Positions 12,578 through 63,941 of a stretch of 64,000 nucleotides of DNA are shown here, piece after piece. Numbering within the stretch: the first letter of the stretch is position 1; each line of letters starts with the position of its first letter. The notes under the pieces were generated by a model. That model did not search any database, was not told where the DNA came from, and saw only the letters and a list, made by a program, of their open reading frames with translations. The position numbers and the translations under genes were made by a program. This DNA is from Tethya wilhelma (lineage: Eukaryota > Porifera > Demospongiae > Tethyida > Tethyidae). The stretch spans positions 11,614,667 to 11,678,666 of the forward strand of contig CAXIPT010000003.1 of assembly GCA_964030475.1 (NCBI GenBank), written 5' to 3'.

Positions 12578-15500
12578 NTCACCTGCCATCTGCCAACCAC
12601 AGTGGGAGCTCTCTCCTCTCTACTCTCTCCGAGAATAGCTTTGATTTTTCCTCATCCGTCTTCAGCCAATTGACCTCTGACCTCCAGCAGATTCTAGGTG
12701 TCAGCCAATCCCCAGGTACTTTGGTTAGCTCATTGATGTAATGTGTGATGCAATATCCATGCACAAACTGTTTGTAGTAAGTTGGGCACAAAGTAGCCTC
12801 GTTCCCAGGCTCCTCCCTCACGTATATTTTCTTCGAGATATATGCGAGGGAGGAGCCTGGGAACAAGGCTAGGCACAAAGTATGTTCATCCATATCTATG
12901 AAACTGAAGCATTATCTGTTCCTTAGCTTCATGAGGATCATCTCTATCCCTCTCTCTTTTTCTCTTTCTCTCTCTTAGGCTAGAGATTGTCACATCTTGT
13001 GTGTGTGTGATGTGTTGTTTATTGTTAGTGCTAAATTTACACCATCTTTATTTGCAAGGAGTCGACACAATCTGCCGATTAGCACCCTGCCTGACCCTGG
13101 CTGTACACACATTAGTGTATTGTCACCAGTGTTTAGCACCCCATTGAGGCACACAGAAGGAACACTCTCAGTAGAATTGTGACATAATAGCTGAGGAGGC
13201 ATTTACACACTTTTGGCTTTTTGCGTGTGTTTAGTGGGTGTAATATTCCAGTAAAACAACAATTTTTTTATGATTTGAACAGAGTATGAAGTTGGTATGT
13301 AGTATGTATACAAAGTTCTGCTTATAGATTTGCTAGAACACAAAGTCCTTTCACTGATCATGCAGAATGAACACACACACACACACACACACACACACTC
13401 AGGTTCATCTGGACTGCCTTCAGTAGCAGAGGCACATGAAGCAGTCAAGGCAAACGATCCACAAAAGCTTCAAGACTGCATTACATCATTGCAATTGGAC
13501 AAAGAGGAGGGGAAGTCCCTACTAGAGCTGGCCAGTGAGCACGGGTACACTGGATGCATCCGAGTACTAGTCAACAGTGGGTGTGGCCTCTCAAGAAGTG
13601 GGTGTGACATATCATCAAGCAGTCGGACAGACGGAAAGACTCCACTACATCTAGCCACAGAGAATGGACACCTGAAGTGAGTGTGTGTGTGTGTGTGCGT
13701 TTACTGTACAATGTGTGTAAGTGTGAGACAGGGGATTTATGCCCATTGTTGCTCAATACTGCAACAATTGCATTTCCCGTCAGTTTTATATGGAGATGCT
13801 GGAGTGGAGGTTATAATGGTATGTGCTTGTCTGCAAATGACAAGAGAACTCTGAGTTTGATTGTAGCATTGTGTTCCAAAAATGGCTATCTTGGGACTGT
13901 GTTTGTGAAGTATCTACTCTCATCTATTTACCTCAAACCACACACACACACACACACTAGTTCTCTCAGCCTCCTCCTAAGCTGTGGTGCCGATCCAAAT
14001 GTACTTGATTCTGAGGGTCAAACCCCTCTCTTTTTGGCTCTCAAACAAAGTCATATGGACTGCGTAGATCAGCTACTCCAAAGAACCACTCACCTAGCAA
14101 CAGTGACCAAGGTAGGAGAGAAAGTAATGCAAAGTGTGGATGTTAGCATGAACAAAACAGGCTTGAATGCATGAATATTTTAAACAGGCTCTCTCTAGTT
14201 CAAAGTGTGTACTTTGGATACAGGAGGTTGGTGCCACATGGTTTACTGTTTTACACAGCTTAATTTGTGGCTAGTGCTATGTTAATGATATACATTGGTC
14301 TGAAACCCACAAGCATTTTAGAAGTCCCTCTCTGATATAAGAGCAGTGTTAATTGGTTTGAAGTGTGATTAAAGTTTCTTTCTTGGTGATTATTTTTTTT
14401 GGAAGGCTCAACAACTGAGTCTGTTGAACCTGGAGGCTACCCAGTATCCTCTTGAACCCAGGCCATTGTGCAAAGGGAAGTGCATGGGTGGAGGGAAATC
14501 TGGTTTAGCCAGTCCCTAGCCACCCCACAGCTATGTGTGTGGTGTGCAATTGGGCTCAGTAGTTGCAAGAATTTGGGTTTACCTGTTACTGTTCCATTAT
14601 GATTATGTTATAGCTTTGAACACACACACACACACACACACACTGAACATATGTCTATCCAATTGAGTGTGATGATGGCCATTAGTCACACAACATATCT
14701 TCAAGCTGTCACTGACTAATGTTGCCTTTCTACTCATATTAAACAGACTAATGACCACAATTCCATGGCTAGTGATATTAGTATAGGTTACATCACGAGG
14801 TGCAGGTTTCTATGTTATTTACACACCGAGGGCCAGAGGCCCGAGGTTGTGTAAATCACATAGAAACCGAACCGAGTGATGTAACTGACTTGTACCATGG
14901 ACCAACCAAATCAGCTGTTCACCAAATGGAAGGAGTGGTCTACAATTGTAGCTGTGTAGTAAATAGCTTCTAGGTAGACGGGGTGTTGACAATCATATGC
15001 CCAGGGGGGAAATGCTTTCTCGTACTGTTGTTCTGATTGGACTAAACATAGGAGGTGAATATCTAGATATCCACCTCATGTTTATAAGCATGAGGTGAAT
15101 ATGAGATTTATCAACCACATTTTGAGCAATCTGATTGGTCAATTGACAACAACCATGGTACAACAATGTTTACAACCACGTGGGACTAATATGGACTCCT
15201 TGCTTATAGCATACATAACAAAAGACTCCTTGGTAAATTTACCGGCAAAAAAAAGGTTCTTAGTTTCCTACTTCTGTACGTTATTATTATTATTTAATAG
15301 ATTTTTTTACCAGGGGTAACAACAATATTTTCACAGGGGGAAGGCATTTCACCCTCCCTGTCCCCTCGTTATTTGCACTAATTGCAACTAAAAGCTTGCT
15401 GTCTTGAGACCACACACACACACATTCATTCACACCTGTTATAACTACTCTCAATGTACACACACACACTTCTAGTGTGGTGTGAACACCCAACAATGTG

Positions 15501-17333: not shown

Positions 17334-17400
<67 letters not shown>

Positions 17401-18537: not shown

Positions 18538-18582
<45 letters not shown>

Positions 18583-21500
18583 TTCCGTATCAGATCAGAG
18601 CTTGCAAGGATTTGTTCACAATGGACTAGCTAGCATGCTTGCCACTGCTCTTCACACCTTCTGTTGTTTTTCTGCTTTTTTGTTTGTTTTTCTTCCAGAT
18701 AGCTAACAAGCTGTTGTTCAAGATTGCTTTTTAAGCCTCCAGCAAATTATCGGCTCTAAATTGAGTGATTTTTTTTTTTGCAATAGTGTAAAAAGCATTT
18801 TGCACACATTTTATTTCAGTGGCTTTTATTTCATCGTCAATATCCCCACATTTACAGCATTGGTTCTTTTGATAAAATAGTGGCAAGTGCTATGTTAATG
18901 ATATTCATTGGTTTGAAACCCACAAGTATTTTGTAAGTCCTTCTCTGATATAAAGGCAACCAAGTTAGCGCAGTACTAGCTATATAAGTAAGGTCAGCTG
19001 GACTATATTTTAGAAAATTAATCAGCATATTCTTTTTTTTTGGAAGGCTCATTCTCTGAGTCTGCTAAAAATAATTATAAGTGTTGCAATAAATTACCCT
19101 ATAGTGCGGAATTTTCGTTGGTGCAAAATTTTGTATAAACGTGCCAGAAGCAATTTTCGTAGTTTTAAATTTCGTATACGAGGCGCGCACTTGTATAAAG
19201 TAAATGCGGAAGTTAAGTTTTAATTTTCATATATTCGAACCACATACGAAAATTTCCCACTATACGGTATAAGAACCACTCAGCATGTTGTTCTTCTTTA
19301 CAGATGTGTTTGTGTACATGTATAGCTATGTGTTGTTACTTCTTCAATGAAGATACTGTGGTTGTATTGCTGGTAGAGAGGTACAGAAGTGTCTGTGAGC
19401 TACTTACTGTAGCTGCCAAGGACATTAGTGGAGAGAGCTATGTTAATGATATACATTGGTTTGAAACCCACAAGCATTTTAGAAGTCCCTCTCTGATATA
19501 AAGAGGAGGGCAGTGATGAGGGTCATCCTTAGTTGTCTGGTTTTATTAATTTATATGTTTCTAGATTTTTTGGAAGGCTCAGTTTCTGAGTCTGCTAAAA
19601 GTAATGTCACTGAAATCTACCAGTGACCAAACACAATTTATTGTTTTGCAATAAGTTATCATTAATTTTATAATTTTGTAATATTATGCATTTTTTTTTT
19701 CCTCCCTAGAGAGTAGACAAGTTGTTGTTTGTGTCAAGATACCTGACTCTGGTGCACTTGTGTGTTACCATGGCGATGAATCCTCTTCAAAAGTGGGTGT
19801 GGCAATCGGACGGATCAAAGTGCTGAGACATCACAAATTATCTGACGTTGAAATCTTAGTGGAACAAGCACTCGAACAGTACTGTAAAATATTAAAGGGT
19901 TATCCTCATTCTAGCACTGACCTGAACACTGAGCATGCTCAGACTACTAATGAGAAACCCCCCGCCCACCACCAACCAGAGGGACACCTCGTTGAGAGAA
20001 TTTTAAAAGAGTACGAAATTTCGAAACGTCTTGTGCAACCTTCTTCATCGTCATGCACGAGTGAGCAAGATTGGTCCGAGTTCGCTGAAGCATATCGAAA
20101 GAGATGTGAGGAGATAATAAGAGAGAGGCACAACAAGACAGAGCTGCTGGGTCTGTCTGGGGCGAGCGTCCGTGGGTACTGTGTCGGAGCTCACGAGTGG
20201 AAGGCGGGGCAGCTGGAGAGGGGGGTGAGGATGAAGAGCCTCTTCTCTGTGTTGGGAGAGATGGGGAGTGGTACGCTGGAGGGGGAGGCCCCTGAGGTGA
20301 TTGTGACACTGAAAGGTAAGTTTTTGACTAAGTGTGTGTGGCTGCATGCATGTGTTATAAGTGTTGAATGCATTAGCATGATTGGCAATTTTCAAGTTTG
20401 GTAATTTAATTCTGCATGCTGCATTGTTGATATGCATGTGAATATACAAAGTTATTTGGCGATTTGAAGAATAATTCGCCAATTCGCCAAATTCACCCAC
20501 TATAAGGTATAAAGTGTTGAATGCAGTTTATGATGTCAGAGTTCAGTAATGATAAGCTTATTTGTTTTGTATGTAATGAGTCTACATGAGTGTTTGGCAA
20601 AAGTTGCTAACTGGCTGTTCCCATCAGGTGCTGATGAAGGTTGTCTTGATCAACTTGCCTTCCAACTCATGATTCCAGTGGCCAAATTGAAGCAGTATAT
20701 TGAGCTGGTAAGTGATCGTCACTTTTACATATCACAAATTGCAATACAATGTATAATACCATGTGGTATGGACTTGCCCTCTAGATTGAACAGCACAAGA
20801 CTCTGATGGTCCATGGTGCTCAAGGCAGTGGCAAGACCCAACTCACTCTGAGCCTGGCAGAGTACCTCAAGCAGAGGCATGGAGCTGAGGACACCCAGGT
20901 GGTCCATGTCTCCCTCCACCCCAGCTTCCAGAGGGACGATCTCTTCAGAGTGTTTCACCTCAACGGGCTCTTGATGCCTCTTGAGGAGGAACAGGAGGAG
21001 GGGGGAGAGAGAGGGAAGGCCAGCACCGTGGCTCATGCTCTCAGATTGAGGTGAGGATGATGTTACAATGGCAAGAATTTGCAACTGTGCAATGAATGAT
21101 TTAAAAATAAGAGGTCTATTTTGTGAGGTCTACTGGTTATTTAAATATATTGGTATTCAAGCGCTTACAGCAAACTTCTATGTGATGTACACATTGATAA
21201 AGACCCATCTGTTAAAGTTTACAAGCAATACTCTAATTCAATATTCTGATAATCTTGTCAATTACTGTTTTCTCTCTCTCTCTCTCTCTCTCTCTNTCTC
21301 TCTCAGGACACATGTGATCATTCTCGATGACCTGTCCCACATCTCTGTCCCTGGTGTCCTTGCAGAGCTCCTCACCTCTCTGACCTACAGGACACCCTCA
21401 CATCCAATGTGGGTCAGCGATGTCTACGACAGAGAGGGGTCGCTGCTCTACCCCTGTGGACTGTACTACCTCAAGGAGGGGAGCTACTTCATCGCCACCA

Positions 21501-23006
21501 AGACTATAGCAAGGTAATTCCATGCCAAATCAACACAAAGAAAATGAGCACCTTCACAAAATTCAACAAAACTTGAGGTATATTTACCTTACCACAAGTT
21601 ATTAAACTACTGTACACCTAATTTGAGCATCATGACCTATTTCAGAGGCTTATAAAATGAGAAGCCATGCAACTTATGATGCTCAAATTAGGTGTGGTTT
21701 AATAACTTGTGGTAAGGTATGTATACCTCAAGTTTTGTTGATTAAATTTTGTGAAGGTGCTCGTTTTTTCGTGTTGATTTGTCATGGAATTACCCAAAGT
21801 GAAATTTCTTTTGTCAGAAATTTTTGTTTGTACTTTTTTCTAACATTCACACGTTCACACGGTCTCTCATACTCACACACTCACATCCTCACATCCTCAC
21901 ATCCTCACATCCTCACACACTCACATCCTCACATCCTCACACACTCACATACTCACACACTCACACACTCACATACTCACACACTCACATCCTCACACCC
22001 TCCCAGTGGTGAACCCCTGGATGCTACCACCATGGACCAGTTCCCCCACATCTCCCTCGGCCTCTCCTCCGAACCAATCAGTGGAATCCTTCGACGACAA
22101 CTCATTACATCATTGCTCAACAACAATCGGGGGAATCCCCCTCACCTGTCAGACCCGTTTTACCGGTTGATTCAGTGGCTGGTGGAGGTGTGGCTCCTGT
22201 ACAACAACTTCATGCTCAGCTTGGGCCTTCCTGAATTGACTACAGGTATTTTATCAGCGTCCGAGGAATGCTTAATGATATTCATAGGTCTGGTGTGAAA
22301 CCCACAAGTATTTCGAACTGATGTGTCCATATATATAGCTGGGTGGTCGCTTGTTAGCGCAATCTGGTCAGTTCGTTGTTGAACCAAAACCAAGTAACTG
22401 GGTAATATCTCAGTTTTTTTTTTTGGAAGGCCTTCAATTGAGGTCTGTTTTTACATTACTGTGCTGTTCTCATTGACAATTAAGTGGGTGTGGCTAACTC
22501 TTGTAGATCTTCTGCAGTTGTAGAATGTTTAGTGATATTAATTTTATAACTAGATAGACAAATATCCTTCCTGGAACTTAACTCCTTGACGAGCTCATGA
22601 TGTATATATTGATTCTTGCACAATGTCACGCATATCTCTAGGTCTGCGTCATTTCTTACATTTCCCACTCAAACTGGACAAAATCAGTAGCTTCGTGGGT
22701 TGGGTGTGCTCTATTTGGAATCACCACCTGGCTCCCTCTATCGAGAGTCACCTCTCCATGCACCCTGACCTCCTCTCCTCACCATCAACCAATGGCCCTT
22801 CTCCTCCCTCATCCATCATCGTCTCCAAGCTGCTCATTGCCTGCTCCAGGATGACCTTTGGTGTGACCTGTCCTCTGGAGCACGAGGGTAGGATGAAGAT
22901 GATGGACCAGTTGATGTCGAGACTGGAGGGAGCTGTTGGCAGCGATGGCAGTCCCAGAGCTCAGCTAGCTGGGAGGGGTCCTCCTCCCATTGCTAATGGT
23001 ATGTGA
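11898..23006 (+). CDS. CTTNBP2: Cortactin-binding protein 2-like (coiled coil, ankyrin, P-loop)
   Basis: CTTNBP2 is a cytoplasmic scaffold that binds cortactin and striatin at cell junctions and synapses. Coding exons: 11898-12230 (coiled coil, SELARLQEREALLTHLLELE), 12602-12715, about 13401-13677 and 13961-14111 (ankyrin: DGKTPLHLATENGH, GADPNVLDSEGQTPLFLA), 17124-17297 (DKDGRTPLHIASSRGQ), 17405-17522, 19710-20315, 20628-20707, 20785-21050, 21307-21513, 22007-22245 and 22642-23006. From exon 7 the protein resembles the NAV/CTTNBP2 C-terminal region. Walker A is HGAQGSGKTQL near 20815 and Walker B is VIILDDL near 21313. The stop at 23004-23006 follows IANGM; a donor-like GTATGT overlaps it, so a further exon is possible. 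The exon 1 to 2 join is uncertain in phase. Large introns carry MITEs and snRNA-like units. Domain order supports the call strongly. Confidence 0.82.
12796..12872. mobile_element. Short foldback element, TAGCCTCGTTCCC family (copy 2)
   Basis: Near-perfect hairpin of about 77 bp: TAGCCTCGTTCCCAGGCTCC at the left end has its inverted partner at the right, around an AT-rich centre. It lies in an intron of the CTTNBP2-like gene. Related copies are at 2290 and 43028. Confidence 0.75.
14273..14426 (+). ncRNA. Candidate snRNA-type gene, copy A
   Basis: A PSE-like box AAACCCACAAGCATTTTA (14303) is followed by a TATA-like GATATAA (14334), then a body of about 55 nt. An Sm-like ATTTTTTTTGGA (14391-14402) and a hairpin whose arms GGCTCA and TGAGTC close over a short loop end the unit. 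Box order and spacing match U6-type promoters, and the tail matches Sm-class RNAs. It lies sense in an intron of the CTTNBP2-like gene. Transcription is untested. Confidence 0.45.
14785..14884. mobile_element. Foldback element, about 100 bp
   Basis: Inverted arms carrying TTACATCAC, GGTTTCTATG and ATTTACACA are mirrored as TGTGTAAAT, CATAGAAACC and GTGATGTAA around a GGCCAGAGGCC centre. This gives a long imperfect hairpin typical of a MITE. No coding capacity and only one copy noticed here. Confidence 0.6.
16268..16395. mobile_element. MITE, GGAGGTACGACA family (diverged copy)
   Basis: Ends GAGGAGGT... and ...GTTGTACCTCCTC form a degenerate terminal inverted repeat. The interior shares CATTCCAATCACGTGA and ATGCTGAGTCAGCAAAAG with copies at 43664 and 59830. 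It sits in the 3-kb intron of the CTTNBP2-like gene. Confidence 0.6.
18888..19067 (+). ncRNA. Candidate snRNA-type gene, copy B
   Basis: The PSE-like AAACCCACAAGTATTTTG (18915) and TATA-like GATATAAA (18947) are followed by a body of about 75 nt. A T-run ending TTTTTTGGAAGG (19032-19046) and a hairpin with arms GGCTCA and TGAGTC, then CTGCT, close the unit. The upstream block GCTATGTTAATGATAT is shared with copies A and C. Confidence 0.45.
19095..19269. mobile_element. MITE, TACCGTATAGCGGGAAATTTTCG family (copy 1)
   Basis: The ends TACCCTATAGTGCGGAATTT and AATTTCCCACTATACGGTA form a terminal inverted repeat. The inside is AT-rich with repeated ATTTTCGTA motifs. Related copies lie at 23070 and 23705, with a fragment near 20457-20510. 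Confidence 0.65.
19436..19600 (+). ncRNA. Candidate snRNA-type gene, copy C
   Basis: The PSE-like AAACCCACAAGCATTTTA (19463) and TATA-like GATATAAA (19495) are followed by a body with a small hairpin (GATGA/TCATC). The unit ends with an excellent Sm-like site GATTTTTTGGA (19563-19573) and hairpin arms GGCTCA/TGAGTC. This copy is the cleanest match to an Sm-class 3' end. Confidence 0.5.
21516..21797. mobile_element. Palindromic MITE, about 280 bp
   Basis: Long inverted arms of about 100 bp each run from GGTAATTCCATGCCAAATCA to its inverted counterpart ending GTCATGGAATTACC. They share internal blocks such as ACCTAATTTGAGCATCAT. It begins at the splice donor following the exon at 21513, so its first bases overlap the donor. 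No coding capacity. Confidence 0.75.
22266..22447 (+). ncRNA. Candidate snRNA-type gene, copy D
   Basis: The PSE-like AAACCCACAAGTATTTCG (22297) is the copy most like the vertebrate U6 PSE. A TATATATA at about 22329 follows at the U6-like distance. The body can fold on GTTC/GAAC. A long T run ends TTTTGGAAGG (22413-22429), and the terminal hairpin here has different arms (AGGCCT.../...GAGGTCT) that still pair. Confidence 0.5.
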
Positions 23007-31022: not shown

Positions 31023-31072
<50 letters not shown>

Positions 31073-32322
31073 CTCACGTGCAGTGGTATGATGTGACTCG
31101 GACTAGGTACAACAGGAAGACCGGCATCCTTCAACAAACTCCTCAACTCCCTCACACTCTCCTGGTGTTTCCTCCGCAGTGCCTTCCCCTCGTCCGACTT
31201 CAATATCTGCACAGACTTACGAGCAGCCACAGCTTGCATCGGAGGCATAGCAGTGGTGAAGATAAACCCATCTGCATAACTACGAACCATATCGATAAGC
31301 TTCGAAGATCCAGCAATGTAGCCACCAGCAACCCCAAAAGCTTTTCCAAGCGTTCCTGAAATGATGTCCAAATCGTCCATGAGTCCCTCCCTCTCTCCAA
31401 TGCCACCTCCGTGCTCCCCGTAAAGACCAACGGCATGGACTTCGTCGATAAATGTGAGAGCGTTGTACTTGTGAGCAATGTCACAGATCTCCTTGATGGG
31501 AGCTATGCTGCCAGACATGGAATAGACAGACTCGAAGGCGACCAGCTTTGGGATGTTGGGGTCGTATTTTTGTAGCAGCTCTTCGAGATGTTGTGGGTCG
31601 TTGTGACGAAAGATCTCCTTTTTCGTTTTTCCGTGTCGTATTCCAACTATCATTGAATTGTGGTTGCCAGCGTCTGAGAATACGACACAATTGGGCATCA
31701 TTTTTCCAAGTGTTGAAAGAGAGGCATCGTTTGCGACATAGCATGAGCTGAAGACCAAAGCTGCATCTTTCTTGTGGAGGTCTGCAAGCTCTTTCTCGAG
31801 AGCTACGTGAAAGTAGCTTGTCCCCGAGATGTTTCGAGTTCCACCAGCTCCAACACCGTGATTCTGAACGGCATCACTGTGTATGTGTGTGTGTTAGAAT
31901 ATACCATAAATACAGGACACCATCTGCGACAGGGTGTGTGTGATGTGTAATGAAATTACTATTGCAAGCTAATGGTGGAATTGCATTAGAGTGTAGAGTG
32001 GTAAACTCAAGGTCACATTGTTATACCAGTAGGAAATGATGCCACAACCACTTCCTACCACAGCTGTAAGACCAAACACAGACAAGAAGTCTAAGGAAGA
32101 AAATGGCTAAAGCTTTACAACTGAAAAGAGAGGTTTGCAGTTACCAGTAACTCGCTACAAATCCTAACCAATTTTCATTTAACCATATGGTCAACAATAG
32201 CAACACAGTTACAACCGATTTCAGTCAATTCATGCACCCTTACAACAATACACGCACACACACACACANNNNNNNNNNNNNNNNNNNNNNNNNNNNNNNN
32301 NNNNNNNNNNNNNNNNNNNNNN

Positions 32323-32375
<53 letters not shown>

Positions 32376-34993
32376 CACACACACACACACACACTACTCA
32401 CGTGCAGTGGTATGATGTGACTTGGACTAGGTACAACAGGAAGACCGGCATCCTTCAACAAACTCCTCAACTCCCTCACACTCTCCTGGTGTTTCCTCCG
32501 CAGAGCCTTCCCCTCATCCGACTTCAATATCTGCACAGACTTACGAGCAGCCACAGCTTGCATCGGAGGCATAGCAGTGGTGAAGATAAACCCATCTGCA
32601 TAGCTACGAACCATATCGATAAGCTTCGAAGATCCAGCAATGTAGCCACCAGCAACTCCGAAAGCTTTTCCAAGCGTTCCCGAAATGATGTCCAAATCGT
32701 CCATGAGCCCCTCCCTCTCTCCTATACCACCTCCGTGCTCCCCGTAAAGACCAACAGCATGGACCTCGTCGATGAACGTGAGAGCGTTGTACCTGTGAGC
32801 AATGTCACAGATCTCTTTGATGGGGGCTATGCTGCCGGACATGGAATAGACAGACTCAAAGGCGACCAGCTTTGGGATGTTGGGGTCGTATTTTCGTAGC
32901 AGCTCTTCGAGATGTTGTGGGTCGTTGTGACGAAAGATCTCCTTTTTCGTTTTTCCGTGTCGTATTCCGACTATCATTGAATTGTGGTTGCCGGCGTCTG
33001 AGAATACGACACAATTGGGCATCATTTTTCCAAGTGTTGAAAGAGAGGCATCGTTTGCGACATAGCAAGAGCTGAAGACCAGAGCTGCATCTTTCTTGTG
33101 GAGGTCTGCAAGCTCTTTCTCGAGAGCTACATGGAAGTAGCTTGTCCCAGAGATGTTTCGAGTTCCACCAGCTCCAACACCGTGATTCTGAACGGCATCA
33201 CTGTGTATGTGTGTGTGTTGGGATATACCATAAACACAGGACACCATCTGCGACAGGGTGTGTGTGATGTGTAATGAAATTACTATTGCAAGCTAATGGT
33301 GGAATTGCATTAGGGTTCAGTTTGGACTCAAGGTCACACTGTTATACCAGTAGGAAATGATGACACGACCACTTCCTACCACAGCTGCAGGACCAAACAC
33401 AGACAAGAAGTCTAAGGAAGAAAATGGCTAAAGCTTTACAACTGAAAAGAGAGGTTTGCAGTTACCAGTAACTCGCTACAGATCCTACCCAATTTTCATT
33501 CAACCATATGGTCAATAATAGCAACAGTTACAACGAATTTCAGTCAATTCATGCACCCTTACAATAGACAAACACACTTACATAGTGGCTTTGATGACTT
33601 CGGGGTGCTTGCCCATTCCGAGGTAGTCGTTGCTGCACCATACAGTGATGTCCCTACCATCCTCCACTCTCACTGTCCTCTCATACTTGGGGTACTGTTT
33701 GGCTGTTGGGTTGCGATCCCCCGATCGTGCCAATATGCGAAACCGTCGATAGGAGTTGTCGTCCATCTTGGCTTTGATCTTGCTGTCAAAGAATTGGTTG
33801 TAGTCAAGCTTGCCTTCACCTGGGGAGGGGTGTGTGTTGGTGCAAGCTAGGGTGTTTAAAAAGTGTTTTGAAGAAGAAAGAACGACATAAAATGTGTACA
33901 CAGGAAGGTGATTTGCTTTCATTGTCTCAACATTGTTTCCCAGTTATAATACAAGGAATGACCCCACTGAATAGACACACCTGCTCCACACACACACACA
34001 ATGCCGTGCATGACACAAATTACTACACAAGTGTGCCACCAATATCCCTAGATGGCCAACAGCCCTGACTCCCAGCTCGGAGACAGGAAGCACCCTCACA
34101 CACACACAAACACACACACCATTCAATATCCCACACACACCATTCTGTATCCTCTTACACTACATTATGATCATGCATCCTCTGCCCATTATGCATCTGT
34201 TGATAATCAAAGCCATAGCTGGTCTAATCCCTGACTCCAAGTAAGGTTACATTTTGTGTTGATCTATGCTTAGCCCTTACAAACTTCAAAGACCAATGGT
34301 TATTTTCACCCCCAGAGTGGGACACACTGTTTGTAAGCATAGCTGGCAAATAGTCCACATTATCACAACCCCACTCAAAATATTACTGAGAGGAAAACAG
34401 AGGGAAAAGTCTACTTAAAGTGCGATAACATTTTTTCAGTTTTTTTCAGTTAATGTTGTCAAGGGAGCAAAATGCTGCGATTAATCAACTCTAGATGCAC
34501 TAATTGTGACCTGCCAATACATGTCAATGAACAATATGCTCCACACACACAATATTATGCAAAGAAGATAATACCTATGGTTGTTACATCAATGCAGTCG
34601 AGACAAAACATGCTCTCGCACACTATTTGCAAAAAAAGGTTTCAAAGTTGTTTTACTGTTCTAGCAAGTAAGCACTCCCAAACACACAAGTGAATCAGAG
34701 TAACAGAATCACTTATTAACACAATTATCACGTGTATATATACACACCCTGTACAAATTGAATGTAGATGGTACAATGCACCAAACACAGAGCGACAGGT
34801 AGGTACCTGTGACTGGAACGGAGTTGAGACAGCTGGGTTTGGTTGCTGGGAAGAAGGTGGTCTTTACAGATTGCTTCACACTGTCGGAAATAAAGTTCTT
34901 CCAACGAAAGGGACAGTTGCCTAAGTGGGAGAAAAAAACGACAATTGACTTGCTATGTCCATTTAAATCACCTCATACACATCAAAAGTTGAT

Positions 34994-35738: not shown

Positions 35739-36276
35739 TCTTTTTAGTGACACTTTCAGTCGAGTAGTAGGTATAAAAAGAAATTCGCGGAACGTATATG
35801 GCTCTAAACAGCAAAATCCAGGCAGTTTGTTGGTAAACCTGTTCCCCCCTCCTTCCTGATACTTCAAACCACCGGAAGCCGCAAGATGAACAGGGCTACT
35901 TGACCTTCGGGAAGTGATGGGTGTGGCTCGGCTACGAGTTTAGTAACCTTTTGCAGCGCACGTGATTTGCATGTGACTAATTCAAGGTGGAAAATGGCCG
36001 CCAATTCAAAATCTGGGAGTGACTTTGTTATTTTGCTAAATTATCGCAGAAAGGACTACTTTTGAGTTTCACTATTGTTGCAAACGTACCAAGATTCGAC
36101 TACTGATCGTACAAGACGTCAAATTGTGAGTAAACTCGTTTCAGAGACTTGTAAAGTTCTTCCCATAACAGTTAGGCTTTTTAGCTATCTCAAGGTGATA
36201 TATATGGTACTAATGGCTCTATTGTAGCCATCTGAGCTTGCAAATTGTGAAGAGGAGCAATCTTGAGTGTGAAGTA
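35739..36276. promoter_or_regulatory. Divergent promoter region, ALAS / BRPF
   Basis: About 540 bp between the divergent start codons. An in-frame extension of ALAS to 35867 is open but lacks family similarity. No IRE-like CAGUGN hairpin was found on the ALAS strand. GT-AG-like borders near 36123 (AATTGTGAGTAA) and 36228 suggest a possible 5' non-coding BRPF exon. Confidence 0.35.
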
Positions 36277-37952
36277 ATGAATCGTATAGAATCAGTCGAT
36301 TGTAAAGAGATTGCTCAAGCGATAAGAGGTCAGAGACCACCATATGTGTGTCCTGTATGTACTCGAGAGTATAGGAGTATGACTGGCATCCTCTACCACC
36401 TTGGACAAATAGGACAGTCTCTGAAGGTGCCCAGGTGTGTGCTGGGTGAGGATACACCTCAGGGAAGTCCCAAAGCTCCCAGTTCCCCCGGCAGTGCAAT
36501 CAAGCGGAAAACTCGCCGCGATCTCACGTGGGCGGAGTCGCAGAGACTCGTGGAGGTGGAATTTGAGAGTTGCTTTCGTAGGATTGAAATTGACAATGAT
36601 CTTGACGTCTCCTATCACAGTGACGACGACAGCGAGAATTTGGTGGACGGGGGGCGTTCTCACGATCGGAAGGGGGGTGCAGTCACACGGACCCCTCAAC
36701 GAAGAGGCAAGGGGGCCAAGAGTGAGACTCCGCAGAGTCGTGGCAAGTGGTCTTCTAAATCAAAGAACAAAGGGAAGAGAAAATCGAAAATAAAGACGCC
36801 CGGTAAAGAGAGCAACGAAGGAGGTCCGACACCCCTACCCTCAGCTCAAATTAAAGTCCTCGACACTCTAGATTTTCCCGATGCACCATCACGAGAATCA
36901 ACATACTATCGCTTTGTGGAGCAGAGTGCTGAAGACCTGGATGAGACCATCGAGTACGATATGGATGAAGAGGACTACCAGTGGCTCTCACTGTTGAACG
37001 AGGATCGCAAGAGTCAGGGTCTGACTTCTGTGCCGCAAGAAATGTTTGAAATTTTGATGGATCGTTTGGAAAAGGAGTGTTGCTTCGAGAGCCAGACCAT
37101 CGGCAATGGAGCAGAGGTATCCAAGAACATGTACAACATTGACGAGAATGCAGTCTGTTGTATCTGCAACGACGGAGAGTGCCACAACACAAATGCCATC
37201 CTCTTCTGCGACATGTGCAACCTGGCCGTCCACCAGGAGTGCTACGGTGTCCCTTACATCCCAGAAGGACAGTGGCTCTGTCGAAGATGTCTCCAATCTC
37301 CATCGAGAGGCGTAGATTGCGTCCTCTGTCCGACTAAAGGCGGTGGATTCAAACAGACGGTAGATGGCAAGTGGGCGCACGTCATTTGTGCCATCTGGAT
37401 CCCCGAAGTCCAGTTCTCGAATCCGGTTTTTCTTGAACCGATCGACTGTATCAAGGAGATCCCTCCAGCGCGATGGAAGCTCACCTGCTACATCTGTCGC
37501 AAGAAGATGGGCGCTTGTATCCAGTGTGCCAAGCCCAACTGCTACGTGGCCTTCCACGTTACTTGTGCCCAGCAAGCCAGTCTCTACATGAAGCTTGAGC
37601 CGACCAAAGGTGGGGAGATACGCAAGATTGCCTATTGTAACTCTCACACTCCTCCATCCGTGAAAAGGAAGCGTGAGAAGCAAGCAGCAGCGGAGCGAGC
37701 TAAAATGATCACCAAGGAGCCGCCAGCTGGGGGGGATCAGGAGCTTAGTGAGGAAGGGGTTAAAGATAAAGAAGCCGATGACGAGGAGGGAGAGGTGAAG
37801 ACGGAGGAAAGGAGCGGAGGGAAGGAGGGGGGAGGATCGAAAGAGGATGTCGAGGATGATGGTGGGGGTGAGAAAAAGAGCAAGGTGATGGGAGAGAAGA
37901 AGGCATCTTTTCAACCTGTCGTGAATATCCCCTACGTCCCTCAGCACAGGTG

Positions 37953-39142: not shown

Positions 39143-42100
39143 CAGAATCTCACTGAGGAGGAACGCGAGGTGCTAGCGGAGCAGCTCACCCTCTGGAAGA
39201 ACCTCCGCCACGACCTCGAGAGAGCCAGGCTGCTCGTGGAGCTGGTGAGAAAGAGAGAGAAGCTCAAACGAGAACAGCTCCGTCTTCTCCAGTCCATCAA
39301 CGGCCTTCAGATGAGGCCTCTCAACACCGTCTTGAAGAGGATTGTCGACCGGCTCAAGAGGAAGGACCCTGCCGACATCTTTGCTGAACCCGTGTCCATT
39401 GATGAGGTACGTACATGTATGATGTACATGTAGCTAGTGTATGGCTGGGAAATAGCACCAGATTTTGTGCACTTTTGAATCTTTGGAACTGTGCACATAA
39501 TAGTAGTATTGTACGTAGGTCATTCCACAAATTTATCTGTAAATTTTTGGGACACTGCACAAAGAGTTTGGTATTTTTTGAGTGGTACCACTATTGTTGC
39601 AGCTGTTCACCATGTGCTCTGCATGTTTGTGGGTGTATACACACACCATACTGTAGGTGTACATGTAGGCATCCCAGTGTATGTGTGTATATACTGCACA
39701 TGTACTGTATGTGTGGCATTAGTGAATGTGGAGGGGGTGTTATCACATGTGAATGGAGCCCATACAAGTTAACTAATACTTTTTTTTTAAATGCTTAAAA
39801 TTAATGCTTAAAATGCCTATAAAGCACATAAGAAAAAAAATTAATAACAAAAAAATACAAATTTAATAAAGGTATATACATGTACATGAAAATTCTTAAG
39901 CTGCAAGCACAAGTCATGTACATACACACCAACATTTGTGCATGACTATCGGAATATTCACTCATGCACACGCACCATATGATGCTATTTATAAAAGCTT
40001 TCTATCTAATAGTAGCTTGAACATTTCTGAGCATGGAGAACCAAACAAAAAAATCTAACAAAGCTGTGTGTAGATTTCAAAATGACACAATCTGTGTGCT
40101 ATCTCTAGGTGCCGGACTATCTTGATGTGATCAAGTGTCCCATGGACTTCTGTACGATGAGGAAGAAGATCGAGTCCAACGAGTACCACACCCTGGACGA
40201 CTTTGAGAAGGACTTTTACCTCATCTGGCACAACGCCACCATCTACAACCAGAAGGACACCATCTACTACCGGGCAGCCATCAGGATCAAAGAGGCTGGT
40301 ACGTAGGTCATTGTATTGCCTCTTTGAATGGTTGTTGTTTTGTCAATGTTAATACCCTTTGTTTAGGTCAACTATTAAGTGCTTTATGTGTGTCCTGTAG
40401 GTCAATTGTATGTTTATGTCCTGTACAGTAGGCCAGTTCTTTGTTTATGTCCTGTAGGTCAATTCTTAACTCTCTTTGTAAATGTCCTGTAGATCAATTG
40501 TTCAATCCCCTCATTTTTGTCCTGTAGTTCAATTAGTTGTGTGTCCTGTAGGTCACTCTTTTGTATCCTATTGGTCAATTAATTGTCATTTATATTAATT
40601 GTCCTGCAGGTCAAGTGATAATCCAAGATGCCCGTGAGCACTTGGAACGAGCTGGTGTTAGTAGCAGGACAGGTCTTCACGACCCTGAGGTGCAGGAGCC
40701 TCCCCCCCTCACCCCCTCCACCATAGCACAGGTCGTCAAGCAACCCATGGACATCTTGGAAGACCACGGTGACTCATAGAGCACGTACATCTGACGGGAG
40801 GGGCTAGCAGTGCCCAGAGGAGGTTCCACATGGTTCACCTTTGCTTGACTTTGTAATTAAAGTCCTCCACGTCCTGCATGTACCTTGTATGTGCATGTGG
40901 GGGATTTTATGATAAAAGGTCAAGCAAACGTCAATCGTGTCAAACCTCCTTCTCCCAAGACTAAAGGATAGTTCTTTGAGAGTGCCAGTGTTTGCTCTTG
41001 GNCATGATCATCATGAATATTATGCAAAGGCTGAACGCTCACATATCACACAATTTAGTGCATATAGCTGAAATTTCTACTAAGAAGTTTTTACCACTGA
41101 CACTGCCCATTCCTACACTACTTAATTTTTTTTTTTTAATTTTTACTATTGGAACAAGGAATGGTCTCAATTTCGGCACATGCCGACTACTTCATGTGCC
41201 GAAATTGAGACCATTCCTTGTTTCAATACTTTTTACAGCACTGCATGCCCATTCCTACATTGCTTTTTTTTTTAATTTTTACCACTTGTTCATTCACTTT
41301 TTTCAACACTACAGTGTGGAGACTATCAGAGACTGGTTAGTCCCTACAAAAAGCTTGAGTAGAATTAAGCTACATTGTCTGCTAAAATAGCTAATACGCA
41401 TGCGCATTAAATGCCACGTGGATAATTAATGACCTTTGGAGACTCTACTTGTGATTAAGGTTCCGCGCGGGATACCGTTCGTATTTAACTAAACGAAAGA
41501 AATATTTTTGTCAAAAACAGTATCAGTTTAGTTCAAAAATTATGGCAGAGATATGGCCATAAAATTTTTGACGTCAAACTTAGCCATAGATATTAAGGCA
41601 GTTCATCTTTGTTTTAGTGCTTTCAGAGCTAGGGACTGACGAAGAGTTTTTGTGGAATACTGCTTCGTAAAATGAAAGAAACACTCGAACAGTGAGCAGA
41701 CCTGACCTCAGCGTGAGTCGAAAATCAACAAACCTCGCTATATTTCCCAAGTAAGTAAGCGATTTTAAAAACTCTTCGCTAGACCCTCACAATTACAGTT
41801 GTATTTCTGCGTGTCTGCCTTGATTCACTTCACTAAGCCTACTATTGCAGATATTTGACGTCAAAAAAATTGCTAAATTTTGAACTCTTCGTTTCAGTTG
41901 GCTAAACTTGTGCCAACAACCAAATTCAGCCTAGAGTAGCATAAATTATAGCCGAACTAGTGTGTAAGTCTCAGCACTGTGCAATGAGTAGGTTTTGCTA
42001 AATACTGAATAATGTGCAGTGTGCATGGTCTTGCAATTATTTTGCCTGTATCCCGGAACCTTAAAGCGAGTATCAAGGAATTGTTATTTGTGCGAGTATC

Positions 42101-45100: not shown

Positions 45101-46310
45101 ATTAATAAAAAACTTTAATAAAGGTACATGTACATGTAAATTCTCAAGCTGCGAGCACAAGTCAAGTACTATTATTGATACACACCAACGTTTGTGCATG
45201 ACTATCGGAATATTCACTCATGCACACGCACCATATGATGCTATTTATAAAAGCTTTCTATCTAATAGTAGCTTGAACGTTTCTGAGCATGGAGAACCAA
45301 ACAAAAAAAATTTAACCAAACTGCACTTACCATGTGTAGATTTCAAAATGACACATTCTGTGCATGTATCTCTAGGTGCCGGACTATCTTGACGTGATCA
45401 AGTGTCCCATGGACTTCTGTACGATGAGGAAGAAGATCGAGTCCAACGAGTATCACACCCTGGACGACTTTGAGAAGGACTTCTACCTCATCTGGCACAA
45501 CGCCACCATCTACAACCAGAAGGACACCATCTACTACCGGGCAGCCATCAGGATCAAAGAGGCTGGTACGTAGGTCATTGTATTGCCTCTTTGAATGGTT
45601 GTTGTTTTGTCAATGTTAATACCCTTTGTTTAGGTCAACTATTAAGTGCTTTATGTGTGTCCTGTAGGTCAATTGTATGTTTATGTCCTGTACAGTAGGC
45701 CAGTTCTTTGTTTATGTCCTGTAGGTCAATTCTTAACTCTCTTTGTAAATGTCCTGTAGATCAATTGTTCAATCCCCTCATTTTTGTCCTGTAGTTCAAT
45801 TAGTTGTGTGTCCTGTAGGTCACTCTTTTGTATCCTATTGGTCAATTAATTGTCATTTATATTAATTGTCCTGCAGGTCAAGTGATAATCCAAGATGCCC
45901 GTGAGCACTTAGAACGAGCTGGTGTTAGTAGCAGGACAGGTCTTCACGACCCTGAGGTGCAGGAGCCTCCCCCCCTCACCCCCTCCACCATAGCACAGGT
46001 CGTCAAGCAACCCATGGACATCTTGGAAGACCACGGTGAGTCCTAGGATATGTAGGAGGGGCTAGCAGTGCCCAGAGGAGGTTCCACATGGTTCACCTTT
46101 GCTTGACCTTTGTAATTAAAGTCCTCCACGTCCTGCATGTACCTTGTATGTACATGTGGGGGATTTTTGATAAAAGGTCAAGCAAACGTCAATCGTGTCA
46201 AACCTCCTTCTCCCAAAACTAATGGATGGTTCTTTGAGAGTGCCACTGTTTGCTCCTGGAGCTAAAATGATATTTGCACTCGTTCTCTCACACATGTCCA
46301 TTGAAACACA

Positions 46311-46355
<45 letters not shown>

Positions 46356-48010
46356 TCTCACTCCTTCAGATAGCGACATTGAGTTGACTTCGCGAGCCAG
46401 AAGGAGGATGAGCAGCACCACCAGTCTCTCTCTGGACGAGCAGGTGGAGATCCTTCAGGAGAAGCTGGAGATGGTCCCCTCGCAGTACAGCGGTCAGTCA
46501 CGCAAGTCCAGGGAGAAGAACCTCAAGAGAGAGCTCCAAGCTCTCAAACGACAGCAGCAAAAGATGTTGAGGAAGCACTCTGCAGGTTTGTTTATCAAGT
46601 TGTGGGGAGTTTTTTTGTTTGAGAGAAACAAATTTCCAGATATTTGTGAATTTGTGGAAACAAACTGTAAATTGCATGGTGTAACCATGGTTAGAACAAG
46701 AATCTGCAACATTTTATCTGCATAATTTGTTTCTCTCCAAAAAAAAAGGTGTTTGTGGTGTATGAACAGCACCAAACAAAGAATTTCTCAATGATTATGA
46801 TAGTACTGTAGTTAATGAGGCAACCAACAGTTGTAATTGGCACATTTTTGTCAAAACCCACAAGTATTTTGTACAACTCAGTATTTATAAAAAAAGAACA
46901 GGTCAAATGAATCTCTTACCCCAATTTCTGTATGACATTATCATCAGGCTGTAAAGTGCCTGCCTTGTCATAAAACCAGCACTTGCAAACACAGCTTACT
47001 GGTACATGTAATTCACATTCTTGTCTAAACCCACAAGCATTTTGTACAACTTGGCCTTTATAAAGACTGGTGGGTACTCATGATAAGTTATATAGGTGGG
47101 TAATCTCCTCTATGGCCTTTTCAACAAGCTAGAATTTTTTGGAAGGCTGTAAAATGCCTGCTTTTTGTGTGAAACTAATACATTCCTGGAGCACAAGTTG
47201 ACATATGTGTTCTTTTTTAAACCCACAAGCAATTTATACAACTTGCGCCATAAAGACTGGAAGATCTCTAGCTTATGTTGGTCTCAGCAGATCCCATCAG
47301 TGCTTTGTTTGTAAGCCTGCTTTCAACTAACACCTCCAAAACATTCCTGGTGCTCACAACTTGGCACATTCTTGTCTAAACCCGCAAGCATTTTCTTCAT
47401 TGCTTTTTTGTAAGCGTTGTGTTTTGGAAGACTTCTCTCTGTCAAAAAAAAAACTTGCTAAGACAGTTTCCTGGTGCTTACAAATTATCACATTCTTGTC
47501 CAAGCCCAACTTGGCCTTTATAAGGAGTGGGAAGATATGAGGTGGAAACAGTGTTGCTGAAATTTCTCCATGACTTTGTCATTTGGATATTTTCGAAGGC
47601 TAATAAGCCTGGCTTCTAATATTATACTTGCAAACAGTATTGTATTATAGTGTTAGTAATTCACATTCTTTTCTAAACCCACAAGCATTTTGTACAACTT
47701 GGTCTTTATAAAAACAGATTAAGTATTTTGGATATGCACATAGTGGAGCTGGTCTTCTCTCTGATAATCTCAAACTGATGATTTTTTTTTTGGAAGGCTG
47801 TGACAAGCCTGCCTTCTGTCATAACATTAACATTTCCAAGGACAATTTCCTTGTGCTAACAAGTTGGCACATTCTTGTCAAAATCCACAAGTGTTTTGTA
47901 CAACTTGTCCTATATATAGGGAGGTACAGACCATTGACATTCATAGTCTTTGGTTTCCGTAGTATGTTTTTTTTGGAAGGCTGGAAAGCCTGCCATCTTG
48001 TGCAAAACAT

Positions 48011-48071
<61 letters not shown>

Positions 48072-49892
48072 ACTCACTCACTCACACTCATTCAGATTCT
48101 GATGAAAACCTCAACCTCTCCTCCCCACCAAGAAGAAGAGAGAGGGCTCCTAGCATCCCAAGAAACGCTGAAGAGCTAGCCAGCCACGTCATCCATGGCA
48201 GTCTCAGACTGACTCCAAGTCGCCAACAAATCCTCTCCTACTCTGGGATAAGATTGGAGGAGAGAGTGTCAGCACTGCAGCAACAAAAGCAACAACAACA
48301 ATTGCAGAAGAACTCAACCGATTCTAATCTCCTTCAGAGTCAAATTGCAACAGCTGCTGCCATGCCTCTGCAATCCCAGGCAGATGATGGTGAGGCACAC
48401 CAGGAGCCACCAATGGTGGACAGCAGCAAGATCAATGAAGATGTTGCCGATGAGATGGAGGAGGTGGACGGGAGGCTTGGTGAAAAGGACAGTGATGTTG
48501 ATATGATGATGATTGGAGGAGGAGGCAACTCTTTGGTTTCTAGAAACGATAGAACTCGAGAGAAACAGGAAGCTGGAAAGAAGCGCCGACGTCATCCTTC
48601 AACTGGTGGTGGTGGTATCAAGCCGAGCAAGTCAGACTCTTACGTCACAAACATCAGAAAGAAGGCGAGAAGGATCAGGAAAAGTTACCAACAGCGTAGG
48701 AAGAGGCAGTCTGAGCCGAATCCCTCACAGCGGGCTTCTTCACGAGCTGGGCAGAGAAGAACTGTCAGCAGACGAGAGAGAACGATATCCAGCAGTGGAG
48801 GTGCTTACACGAGTGCCTCTGAGGTCGAGAATGAGCGTCTCTCGGCCGCTCCGGTCAATGGAATCGAGAATGGGAGTAGGACTGGTGACGTTGAGGGAAG
48901 AGGTGTGTTCGAGATGGCTAGAACTCGTAGACGATGTGCTAGCAATTCTTCCTCCCTGTACGAGACACCCAACGAAGGTTACACCAGTGAGGATAGACCC
49001 GTGTCTGATTCCAGTTCCAGATTCGGTAGAGATAGGTCCGATTCCCGTGCTGCTATTCCAAGTGCTAGTAGCACTGACGATCTGACCGCTCAACCGATAA
49101 AAGGGGGTGGAGCCAGAAGTAGGAAAGGAAAGAAGAGGAAGAACAGTTCCAGCAGTGAGAGAGGGGGCATTAAAAAGAGTCGGCTGGCATCAGAGTCCTC
49201 AGATGGTGGAGGTGTTGTGTCTCGTGCCAGGTCCATCAATGGCCTAGTGAATGGAGGGGAGTTTGATATCAAACCAATGGACCTGGTGTGGGCCAAGTGT
49301 CGAGGGTATCCCTCTTATCCTGCACTGGTGAGCCGGTCAATACTTGCACTTGTCCTGTCCTGAACTTGCTTTGTCCTGTAGGTCATACATTGAGCCAGTC
49401 AATGCCACCTATGCATAATATTGTAGTTTTATTTTTATTTTTCCTATCCTAAGCCTGTATATTATGTATCAAACTATTAATATTTACTGTGATTATGCTT
49501 GTCCTGTCCTAAACTTGCTCTGACCTGTAGGTCATAGATCCTGATATTCCTGCCGATGGTCTGACCATCAATGGTGAGAAGATCCAAGCTCCGTCGGATG
49601 AGGTGCTGGACTTGAGAGACAAGAACTCATCAGCTATTTACCTTGTCAGGTTCTTTGATGGAAGGAGAAGTTGGTAAGCCATCTTGTCTGATCCACCATG
49701 ATCACTTTATAGCTGAAATTCCTAGATTTATTTATGGACTCCTTTTCTGACGTTGTAAAAGTCCTTTACTGTAGTTCCCCTTCACATGACGTTGGTAGCT
49801 TGTGTATTTGACCATCTTTACCAGATTGTGAAAGGCAGCCAGTAGTAAAGTGTTGAGTCCACTTTGGTTGTTCTCTCGTCTTCATGATTGTG

Positions 49893-61591: not shown

Positions 61592-63941
61592 TTAACTGAA
61601 TCTTCTAAGTATGTAGTCAGTTCTGATGGTTCGTATGACTCTTGCATAATCTCCCAGTCTCTCAAGAGCTCTGATAACCTTCTCCCATGATGGGTCTTCC
61701 TCATTTGCAAGCCAGCATCCCAGCATGCTACTGCGTTTACGACCAATTTGCCTCTGAGAGTACTGATCATCAATTTCATCCAGTTTGGCCACACTGATTC
61801 CAAGTTGAATGCCAAGAATGTACCAGTCTACATCTTTAAGTACTACCATCATGTCTGCTAATGCTGGGACACCTGATTCTGAAAGATAATAAGGACAAAT
61901 GCACTTGAGAAGCCTGGAATTGCATGAGAATAATCATAAAGTTGCAAGTCAAACCTTCAAAAGATTCTTCTGGAGCATGTAATGGAGTAGATGGCCTAGG
62001 ATTGGATTGGCTACTATGTGCAGTTGATGCAAGACTTGCTGTATTATAATATATAATTGATATTATAATCAAGGCATCATTGAACCTATACACCAATCAG
62101 TGTTAATAAACAACCTGTATACTTACGGTCTAATGACGACACGGCAGAATCTGGACTTACAAAGAATGATCTGAACCATTCCCACCATGATATTGTATGG
62201 CCTAAACGTCACAGAAGAAATCTATTGTAATTTGATCCTTGAAAAATTAAAGAATGAAAAAACTCAACTTACTATGAGCAGTAACAGCAACATAACAGTT
62301 AAGGTGTAGTCCCCCAACTGTACATGTTACGTGTGAACTCTCCTCATAAAATTCTCCTCCTGGGAGATTAGCAAATTGAAATTCTGGTGTTAAGTCAGGT
62401 TTCAACTTGGATGGCGATCTTCCAGCTGCTGCAAAGCATTGCTGGTTAGTGTGAGGGCTAGACAGGTTTGTGATTGTCAGCTGCACCACTCCTTGGTAGT
62501 CTCCCTGGGAACAGTACAGCTCATACACGGCACTGGCTGGTTGTGTTTGCTCAGGGAAGATGAATGAAGGGTGTGTTGACTTGTACTTGCGAATCACCAT
62601 GGTGATCTCTTGGCCATCTGGAAAAGACCCCTCTGGGACAGTGATCTGTATTCCTTCTTCCCTCCACGTTATCAGTCTCCCTCTTGGACCAACTGCTTCC
62701 ACCAACTCACCAGTGAACTCAGCTTTACCTATAAGATGTGCATGTATGTTCTATGATTTGTACATTATGTTATAGGCTAGTAGGTACAACTTACATAAAA
62801 GTATTAGCGACTTTGAATTCAAGTTGTAGCTGGTCAGTGTATGGTTGTCTTCCAGTAGCTCTCCATTGCAGTAGAGTTGTTGACAACTGGGTTCAATTTG
62901 AGATTCACGTTCAAGATTTTCCTTCAAAGCACGAACAGTTTCATCAAGGAAGATGCTGGCAGATATCATGTTTCCACTGAGATGCTTTACATTAAGTTTA
63001 GTGGGAGTTGTTACTTCAATAATGCAATCTTGATGAATGTAGTAGTAGCCCAGTGTTCTACCATCATCCAAACATTTATTATTGTACACCAATTGTTGTA
63101 GACTCGGTGAAACCATCTTTTCTATTGAAATCTGTATTCGTAGTTTCAGACTGAGGATGGTATCAGTAGGGTTAACTGAAATTAAGAGGGTTTTACCATC
63201 ATTTGTCTTAACCCTGATCTTCATAGAACTTTGAGACTCAAGGAGATGCATCAATTGACCAGATTGAATATTGTAGTCTGAAAGTGTCTGGTTATCATCC
63301 AGCTTCTTGCCATCAAAGACGAGAGAAAAATTGCTCACTGAAATTCTTTCTTCGGTTTCAATTTTAGATTTCACAAATGAAATTTTATCTCGTAAATAAC
63401 ACTCTACTGCTATAGATTGTCCACATGACCTTTGTATTGCTAATTGTATTGCTTCAGGGTCTCTAGGTAATCTGACAACAAGGTGAAGTGTCGATTCTTT
63501 CTGTATATTATTATAGTCACTCAGTGTTCTTCCATTTTCTAGTTGTTGACCAGCAAATATCAGTCGCTGTTGATCTGGTGGGATTTGTTCTTTATCTTGG
63601 ATCTTTGCTTTCACATTTTCAACTGTATCACTTGGTTCAACTTCCAGTGTTATCGTCTTTCCAGAGAGGGTCTTGATGAATATTTGCATTCCTCCACGAA
63701 GTCTGAGTACCAAGTGTAGTGTGGACTCTTTTTGTATGTTGTAGTCACTCAGTGTCCTTCCTTCTTCTAGTCTTTTACCAGCAAATATCAGTCGCTGTTG
63801 CTCTGGTGGGATTCCTTCTTTGTCTTGGACCTTTGTCATCACATTTTCAATTGTGTCACTGGCTTCAACCGTTAGTGTTATTGTCTTTCCAGTGGTGGTC
63901 TTAACAAATATTTGCATACCATAATAATTATAGTTTTGCAT
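61592..63941 (-). CDS. Multi-ubiquitin-like, ZU5-like and Death-domain protein
   Basis: Exons: about 62796-63941, 62276-62730, 62129-62203, 61954-62029 and 61592-61881, with matching phases. Exon 1 encodes five ubiquitin-fold repeats. UBL1 is nearly ubiquitin ([20 protein letters not shown], ending LVLRLRGG). UBL2 ([20 protein letters not shown]) ends in RLPRD. UBL3-5 are diverged. Exon 2 holds a ZU5-like domain ([39 protein letters not shown]). The last exon encodes a Death domain ([40 protein letters not shown]). ZU5-Death occurs in UNC5, ankyrins and PIDD. Ubiquitin repeats in front of it are unusual. A role in death or immune signalling is inferred. Another exon could lie beyond the window. 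Confidence 0.8.

Follow-up and report, generated by a model that had tools for sequence, protein, structure and literature searches.

The genome of the sponge Tethya wilhelma holds a family of at least 59 candidate small-RNA genes, each of which combines the genome's own snRNA-type promoter with a variable body, a T-run with GGAAG directly after it, and a hairpin at the end. We see about even chances that these genes are transcribed by RNA polymerase II (Pol II) and yield Sm-bound RNAs that likely act as antisense guides. To our knowledge, the Sm-class RNAs of animals are few, old and highly conserved. All results on the family come from this one genome; the term window refers to the whole 64,000-nucleotide stretch of T. 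wilhelma DNA that was analysed.

A tandem array of units in the intron of a BRPF-like gene

A tandem array within a BRPF intron had been proposed in a preliminary description of the window, and we indeed found seven related units between positions 46854 and 47993 (Table 1). Scored with a covariance model of the family (R1, described below), three of these units are complete and four are decayed. The accompanying claim that each unit carries the full series of boxes therefore holds for the complete units and fails for the decayed ones. The complete array units score 75.4–89.1 bits, all three being among the 34 training sequences of R1. Four more complete units, which the preliminary description did not include, lie at 14303–22448 on the same strand as the array.

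The host gene is BRPF-like, with EPL1 and PHD domains upstream of the array (36214–37950) and, downstream of it, the start of a PWWP match at 20.3 bits, which is below the Pfam cut-off of 25.6. Among the 120 matches listed for the large BRPF exon, the best relative that carries an organism name belongs to another sponge, Geodia barretti, with 63% identity and 77% query coverage.

Table 1. Units of the family in the window and the intron that holds the array (window positions; R1 scores in bits)
Feature	Position	Strand	Parts	R1 score	In R1 training set
Complete unit	14303..14424	+		77.4	yes
Complete unit	18916..19065	+		88.0	yes
Complete unit	19464..19595	+		86.6	yes
Complete unit	22298..22448	+		81.9	yes
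Intron holding the array	46586..48095	+	BRPF-like gene; GT...CAG ends; flanking exons joined give an open frame with 0 stops		
Decayed unit	46854..46963	+	promoter and hairpin retained, without T-run	47.1	
Complete unit	47027..47161	+	PSE 47027–47044, TATA 47059, body 47089–47134 (start predicted at PSE+62), T6 47135–47140, GGA and hairpin 47141–47161	88.5	yes
Decayed unit	47219..47320	+		27.7	
PSE remnant	47378..47394	+	without TATA	12.8	
Decayed unit	47507..47612	+	PSE lost; TATA and hairpin remnant	11.7	
Complete unit	47675..47812	+	PSE 47675–47692, TATA 47707, body 47737–47781, T10, hairpin to 47812	89.1	yes
Complete unit	47881..47993	+	PSE 47881–47898, TATA 47912, body 47943–47966 (24 bases), T8, hairpin to 47993	75.4	yes

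Several other features of the window were recorded. About seven copies of a 69-base repeat occupy 24371–24859, where they overlap minus-strand open frames. One 31-base tandem array occurs twice, with identical scores, at 40383–40467 and 45650–45734, about 5.3 kb apart, and is likely part of a duplicated stretch. Two neighboring class I/II aminotransferase frames on the minus strand (31024–31893 and 32243–33292) appear to be a tandem duplication, and a polyubiquitin frame with five ubiquitin matches is located at 62754–63941 on the same strand.

The units share the promoter of the genome's own snRNA genes

The 18-base PSE-like box has 127 genomic matches with at most two mismatches (124.6 Mb searched), compared with 4 for a reversed control, and the array is thus not a product of chance. 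The box also lies 60–66 bases upstream of the start of U1, U2, U3, U4, U5 and U11 copies; in eight U1 genes the box has 1 to 5 mismatches to the query. A U13-like RNA just below its cut-off (45.1 of 46 bits) has the box 67 bases upstream. Relative to the PSE start, a TATA box was found at 31–33 bases in 20 of 23 known snRNA genes and at 30–35 bases in 55 of the 59 units, the pattern used giving none in the remaining three genes and four units. The PSE and TATA box of the units are thus placed as in the known snRNA genes of the same genome, and the snRNA-type promoter that the preliminary description had suggested is borne out. Its likeness to vertebrate U6 promoters stands as far as the snRNA type is concerned and is better stated as identity with the genome's own snRNA promoter. 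Genes that use this promoter, such as U1 and U2, are transcribed by Pol II in other animals.

An octamer-like distal element was not enriched in the 59 units: exact copies occur in 4 (1.1 expected), and copies with one mismatch in 20 (20.4 expected). U6 was not found in the genome search, in which 47 of 10865 candidates were scored and the controls were without a match.

The box is useful in its own right, since it locates snRNA-type genes across the genome, including several other unnamed RNAs. Two such genes on the minus strand of locus L049 (about 320–479 and 1060–1223) have the same promoter and a mutually conserved body (...CACCAGCAAGTCTGGTGGGTGGGGTCACCAC...), with no Rfam match at an E-value of 0.5. 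On the plus strand, a box with TATA is present at L078 (179), L079 (181), L083 (180) and L050 (342), where the bodies do not fit the family or any known snRNA.

Size and distribution of the family

The 59 units fall into 30 clusters, and each consists of the box, a body of 24–83 bases, the T-run with GGAAG, and the terminal hairpin. This number is a lower bound, drawn from the stretches around the box matches listed. Of 118 places in the fetched sequence where the box occurs with at most four mismatches, 59 are units, 21 are U1, U2, U4 or U5 genes, and 38 are others, comprising U3, U11, decayed units, unnamed RNAs and chance matches. Half of the clusters (15 of 30) hold two to seven units each. 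The distribution along the genome is uneven, with 24 of the 59 units at 8.87–11.62 Mb of contig C2 and 12 at 11.42–11.87 Mb of contig C3.

Model R1, built from 34 units, found 54 places at 45.3 bits or more in the other loci, of which 52 correspond to members of the 59-unit set and the other two lie in L037 and L045; 27 of these 54 places are members of its training set. The U1–U5 genes match R1 through the promoter only and reach at most 37.1 bits, the highest being a U5 gene. Also below 45.3 bits are a probable decayed unit (L017, 42.5), the unnamed place at L078 (38.2) and the U13-like RNA (37.5). The expectation that numerous copies with equally spaced boxes occur across the genome is therefore confirmed. 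Relatives of the units in viral or prokaryote contigs were not found, as expected for sponge DNA.

Outside the promoter matches, neither the array nor three single bodies has a second place in the genome, in a search that skips common words. A conserved body in dispersed copies, which the preliminary description had named, together with target-site duplications, as the mark of an ordinary transposon, was not found. Beside units at L038 (626–710) and L070 (474–571), stretches of about 80 bases gave sub-threshold matches to several microRNA families on both strands; these are perhaps the inverted repeats of small DNA transposons.

A T-run and a covarying hairpin at the 3′ end

With the start set at PSE+62, as in known genes, the predicted RNAs are 50–112 nt long (median 77; 58 of the 59 units). 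All 59 units contain a run of 5–14 T followed by GGAAG, T4GGAAG having been required for entry into the set. The base before the T-run is A in 44 units, G in 3 and C in 12, and CTG ends the hairpin in 53 of the 59 by pattern. Judged by sequence, the units have the mark of candidate Sm-class RNAs, namely a U-run between purines beside a 3′ hairpin.

We assessed the hairpin in 34 of the 59 units, chosen over many clusters and aligned. Pairing cells amount to 94.7%, compared with 75.7% after shuffling, and the covariation score is 0.475, compared with 0.163; neither value was reached in 500 shuffles. When the partner column is slid by one, pairing in the same 34 units falls to 37–53%. Two of the five covariation measures are unexceptional: pair changes on both sides number 4 against 3.0 (reached in 43 of 500 shuffles), and pair types 11 against 10.2 (205 of 500). 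When each cluster is represented by a single unit (29 clusters), 93 of the 116 inner pairs form, compared with 59.3 under permutation (SD 4.5, maximum 76, n = 5000). In this test the 3′ arm was anchored on its CT[GA][CT] end, which 58 of the 59 units provide, and not on the inner pairing. The hairpin noted in the preliminary description is thus substantiated as an RNA structure whose stem covaries across clusters, and the compensatory changes point to selection on an RNA.

The position of the hairpin bears on the polymerase. A Pol III gene of the U6 type would end at the first T-run, whereas the covarying hairpin lies 3′ of a run of at least five T and would be absent from such a transcript. 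Runs of four or more T also occur within 19 of the 59 bodies. For this reason, and because the promoter is common to the known snRNA genes, we favor Pol II. The earlier wording of "Pol II/III" genes is retained in its snRNA-type part and resolves to predicted Pol II, given a hairpin after at least five T and the genome's own U1–U5 promoter.

The bodies diverge to background

Among 42 units, the bodies share no 5-mer beyond the shuffled expectation, their columns carry at most 0.17 bits except for the base before the T-run (0.98 bits), and their folding is at the shuffled level (mean z −0.31). Body identity is 0.469 within clusters and 0.456 between clusters. The corresponding values are 0.613 and 0.513 for the 50 bases before the PSE, 0.743 and 0.592 for the tail, and 0.508 and 0.491 for the 60 bases strictly after the hairpin. 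The picture of conserved ends with bodies that do not align is accordingly upheld: the bodies rarely align and have no common motif. As identity is at background in the bodies and close to it in the downstream flanks, unconstrained bodies account for most of the pattern.

Compared with nearby non-transcribed DNA, the bodies have diverged at about the same or a higher rate. Between bodies and post-hairpin flanks, the difference in divergence does not reach significance (p = 0.17, 10 of 15 clusters; when a coarser flank is used, p = 0.33). We also compared 14 independent closest pairs, picked by upstream similarity. In six of them the flanks are alike (z 2.7–6.3) and the bodies are not (z −1.5 to 1.6); in two the bodies are similar (z 3.9 and 2.5) and the flanks are not. 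The term "fast-evolving" in the preliminary description therefore holds for divergence to background, and change beyond the neutral rate, suggested by the six pairs, is a hint only.

Known RNA families and possible targets

In none of the 59 units did an Rfam family, SmY and U7 included, reach its cut-off. The window and loci L017–L036 were searched at the gathering score, and the array, L037–L056 and later unit loci at relaxed thresholds. Within the units, the relaxed thresholds gave a single match, to PhotoRC-I on the opposite strand (15 of 45 bits). The initial impression that the units match no snRNA that can be named agrees with this result, as no described RNA family reaches its cut-off.

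Pairing of the bodies to U1, U2, U3 and U5 was not clearly above that of flanking DNA. For U3, the value per base is −0.575, a slight excess over the −0.558 of dinucleotide shuffles (SD 0.007), and the flanks equal it (−0.570 and −0.578). Mononucleotide shuffles gave a pairing excess for U3 and U5; U4 and U11 were compared against these shuffles alone. In all seven complete units of the window, the longest antisense matches to the host gene or the window were at the shuffled level.

The histone genes of the genome (L057–L059 and L063–L066) have a GGCTTTTCTAAAAGCC-type stem-loop and, after it, a conserved element like ACAAAAGATTCA at 7 of the 10 ends examined. Pairing of the bodies to the histone downstream element reached z −4.0 in one unit, but a minimum as low as the observed one occurs in 66% of shuffled sets. 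The mean over the set (z −0.44) is not specific, as shuffled elements pair better (−7.09 vs −6.68). A U7 that matches the genome's own histone element was not found, and the Rfam U7 model gave nothing at its cut-off genome-wide (65 of 27627 candidates scored). The unit at 14303 had been considered as U7, its body being complementary to the textbook histone element, and was dropped because the element at the histone ends of this genome is another one, ACAAAAGATTCA. Assigning any other unit to U7 was likewise rejected, as the pairing excess to the genome's own histone elements failed the family-wise control and no unit reached the cut-off of the U7 model.

Proposed mechanism and alternative explanations

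The overall reading put forward in the preliminary description is supported in part: the snRNA-type promoter, the copies, the hairpin and the lack of an Rfam match at cut-off stand, and rapid evolution beyond neutral is no more than a suggestion. We propose that the snRNA-activating complex would recruit Pol II at the unit promoter, that transcription would begin some 62 bases downstream of the first base of the PSE, and that Integrator-type cleavage would take place downstream of the hairpin. The T-run (AUUUUUUGG) would then take the Sm ring, leaving an unstructured 5′ segment that may base-pair with a second RNA in the manner of U7. New units would likely come from local duplication, with some decaying in place. 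Antisense guiding is our preference because the units are organized like U7, a free 5′ end without structure being joined to an Sm site and a hairpin. That the variable end guides is what we infer from this likeness, and a freely drifting 5′ end would fit almost as well; should guiding be wrong, these genes would be those of Sm-class RNAs with such a 5′ end. A bolder extension, which we regard as rather unlikely, is a repertoire of diverse guide snRNPs, at least 59 in number, in which one Sm–hairpin core would be joined to dozens of antisense 5′ ends. Such a repertoire would be an Sm-based counterpart of guide-RNA arrays and could be renewed by local duplication and rapid guide replacement.

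We take one alternative explanation as a serious possibility, though short of an even chance. Here the Sm-class RNAs would have a 5′ segment without sequence function, the core and hairpin would act (for example, by holding or delivering Sm- or SMN-type proteins), and the bodies would drift after duplication. Same-cluster bodies at background, with downstream flanks nearly so (p = 0.17, 15 clusters), are what free drift would give, as are bodies without motif or structure and the lack of a target in the searches run; the two closest pairs with similar bodies and dissimilar flanks are expected from uneven simple divergence. Free drift does not, however, predict the six pairs in which the flank is alike and the body is not, and about 60 separate genes are not obviously needed for an Sm sink.

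Two further explanations concern the nature of the genes themselves. Decay of four of the seven array units, together with the concentration of 24 units on one part of C2, could be expected of snRNA pseudogenes or of a mobile element with an snRNA promoter but without a product. We consider this improbable, given that the compensatory stem changes point to selection on an RNA, that no unit reaches an Rfam cut-off, and that the array and three bodies have no other copies. Spliced-leader RNAs are also Sm-class and have a 5′ leader that can vary, so that a set with many different leaders might resemble the units. The bodies lack a 5′ splice site, with a best donor score of 4.19 compared with 4.33 after shuffling and at least 7 of 9 positions matched in 2 of the 59 bodies (2.8 expected); we rejected this candidate as very improbable.

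Comparison with known Sm-class RNAs

Several known RNAs share features with the units. U7 snRNA has a 3′ hairpin, and the HSUR RNAs of Herpesvirus saimiri are Sm-class. SmY RNAs are small Sm-class RNAs of nematodes; they come from a multi-gene family, have a recognizable body and are tied to trans-splicing. The units are likewise a multi-gene family, of candidate small RNAs, and reach no Rfam cut-off. Among the papers listed in literature searches, which covered mainly openly accessible articles, none concerned such a family in sponges.

U7 is about 60 nt long, pairs with its target through the 5′ end and has an Sm-type site (PMC7026596). The units have the same order of parts (5′ segment, Sm-type site, 3′ hairpin) at a predicted 50–112 nt. 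Whereas U7 is described there as having one conserved specificity and an Sm site of its own (PMC7026596), the T-runs of the units resemble the spliceosomal site, and the units, unlike U7, have no supported pairing to the genome's own histone downstream element. The HSURs are noncoding and bind microRNAs, and HSUR2 binds mRNAs (PMC9226524). Compared by description only, they bind other RNAs as we propose for the units, but are a few viral genes and not a cellular multigene family.

The Drosophila LU (Like-U) snRNA is a lineage-specific Sm-class RNA with its own PSE and a covarying structure, located in an intron of a protein gene and without overall similarity to its suggested parent U5 (PMC4053861). 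The units resemble LU in being a lineage-specific type (of predicted Sm class) with a PSE, a covarying structure and, for the array, an intronic position. LU is a single gene whose orthologues align among drosophilids, whereas the units number at least 59 and their bodies are mostly unalignable even between neighbors. Neither U7 nor LU, the nearest precedents, is a large family with unalignable bodies; if our reading is correct, a family of about 60 members with one core and mostly unalignable 5′ ends would represent Sm RNPs diversified on the scale of a guide repertoire.
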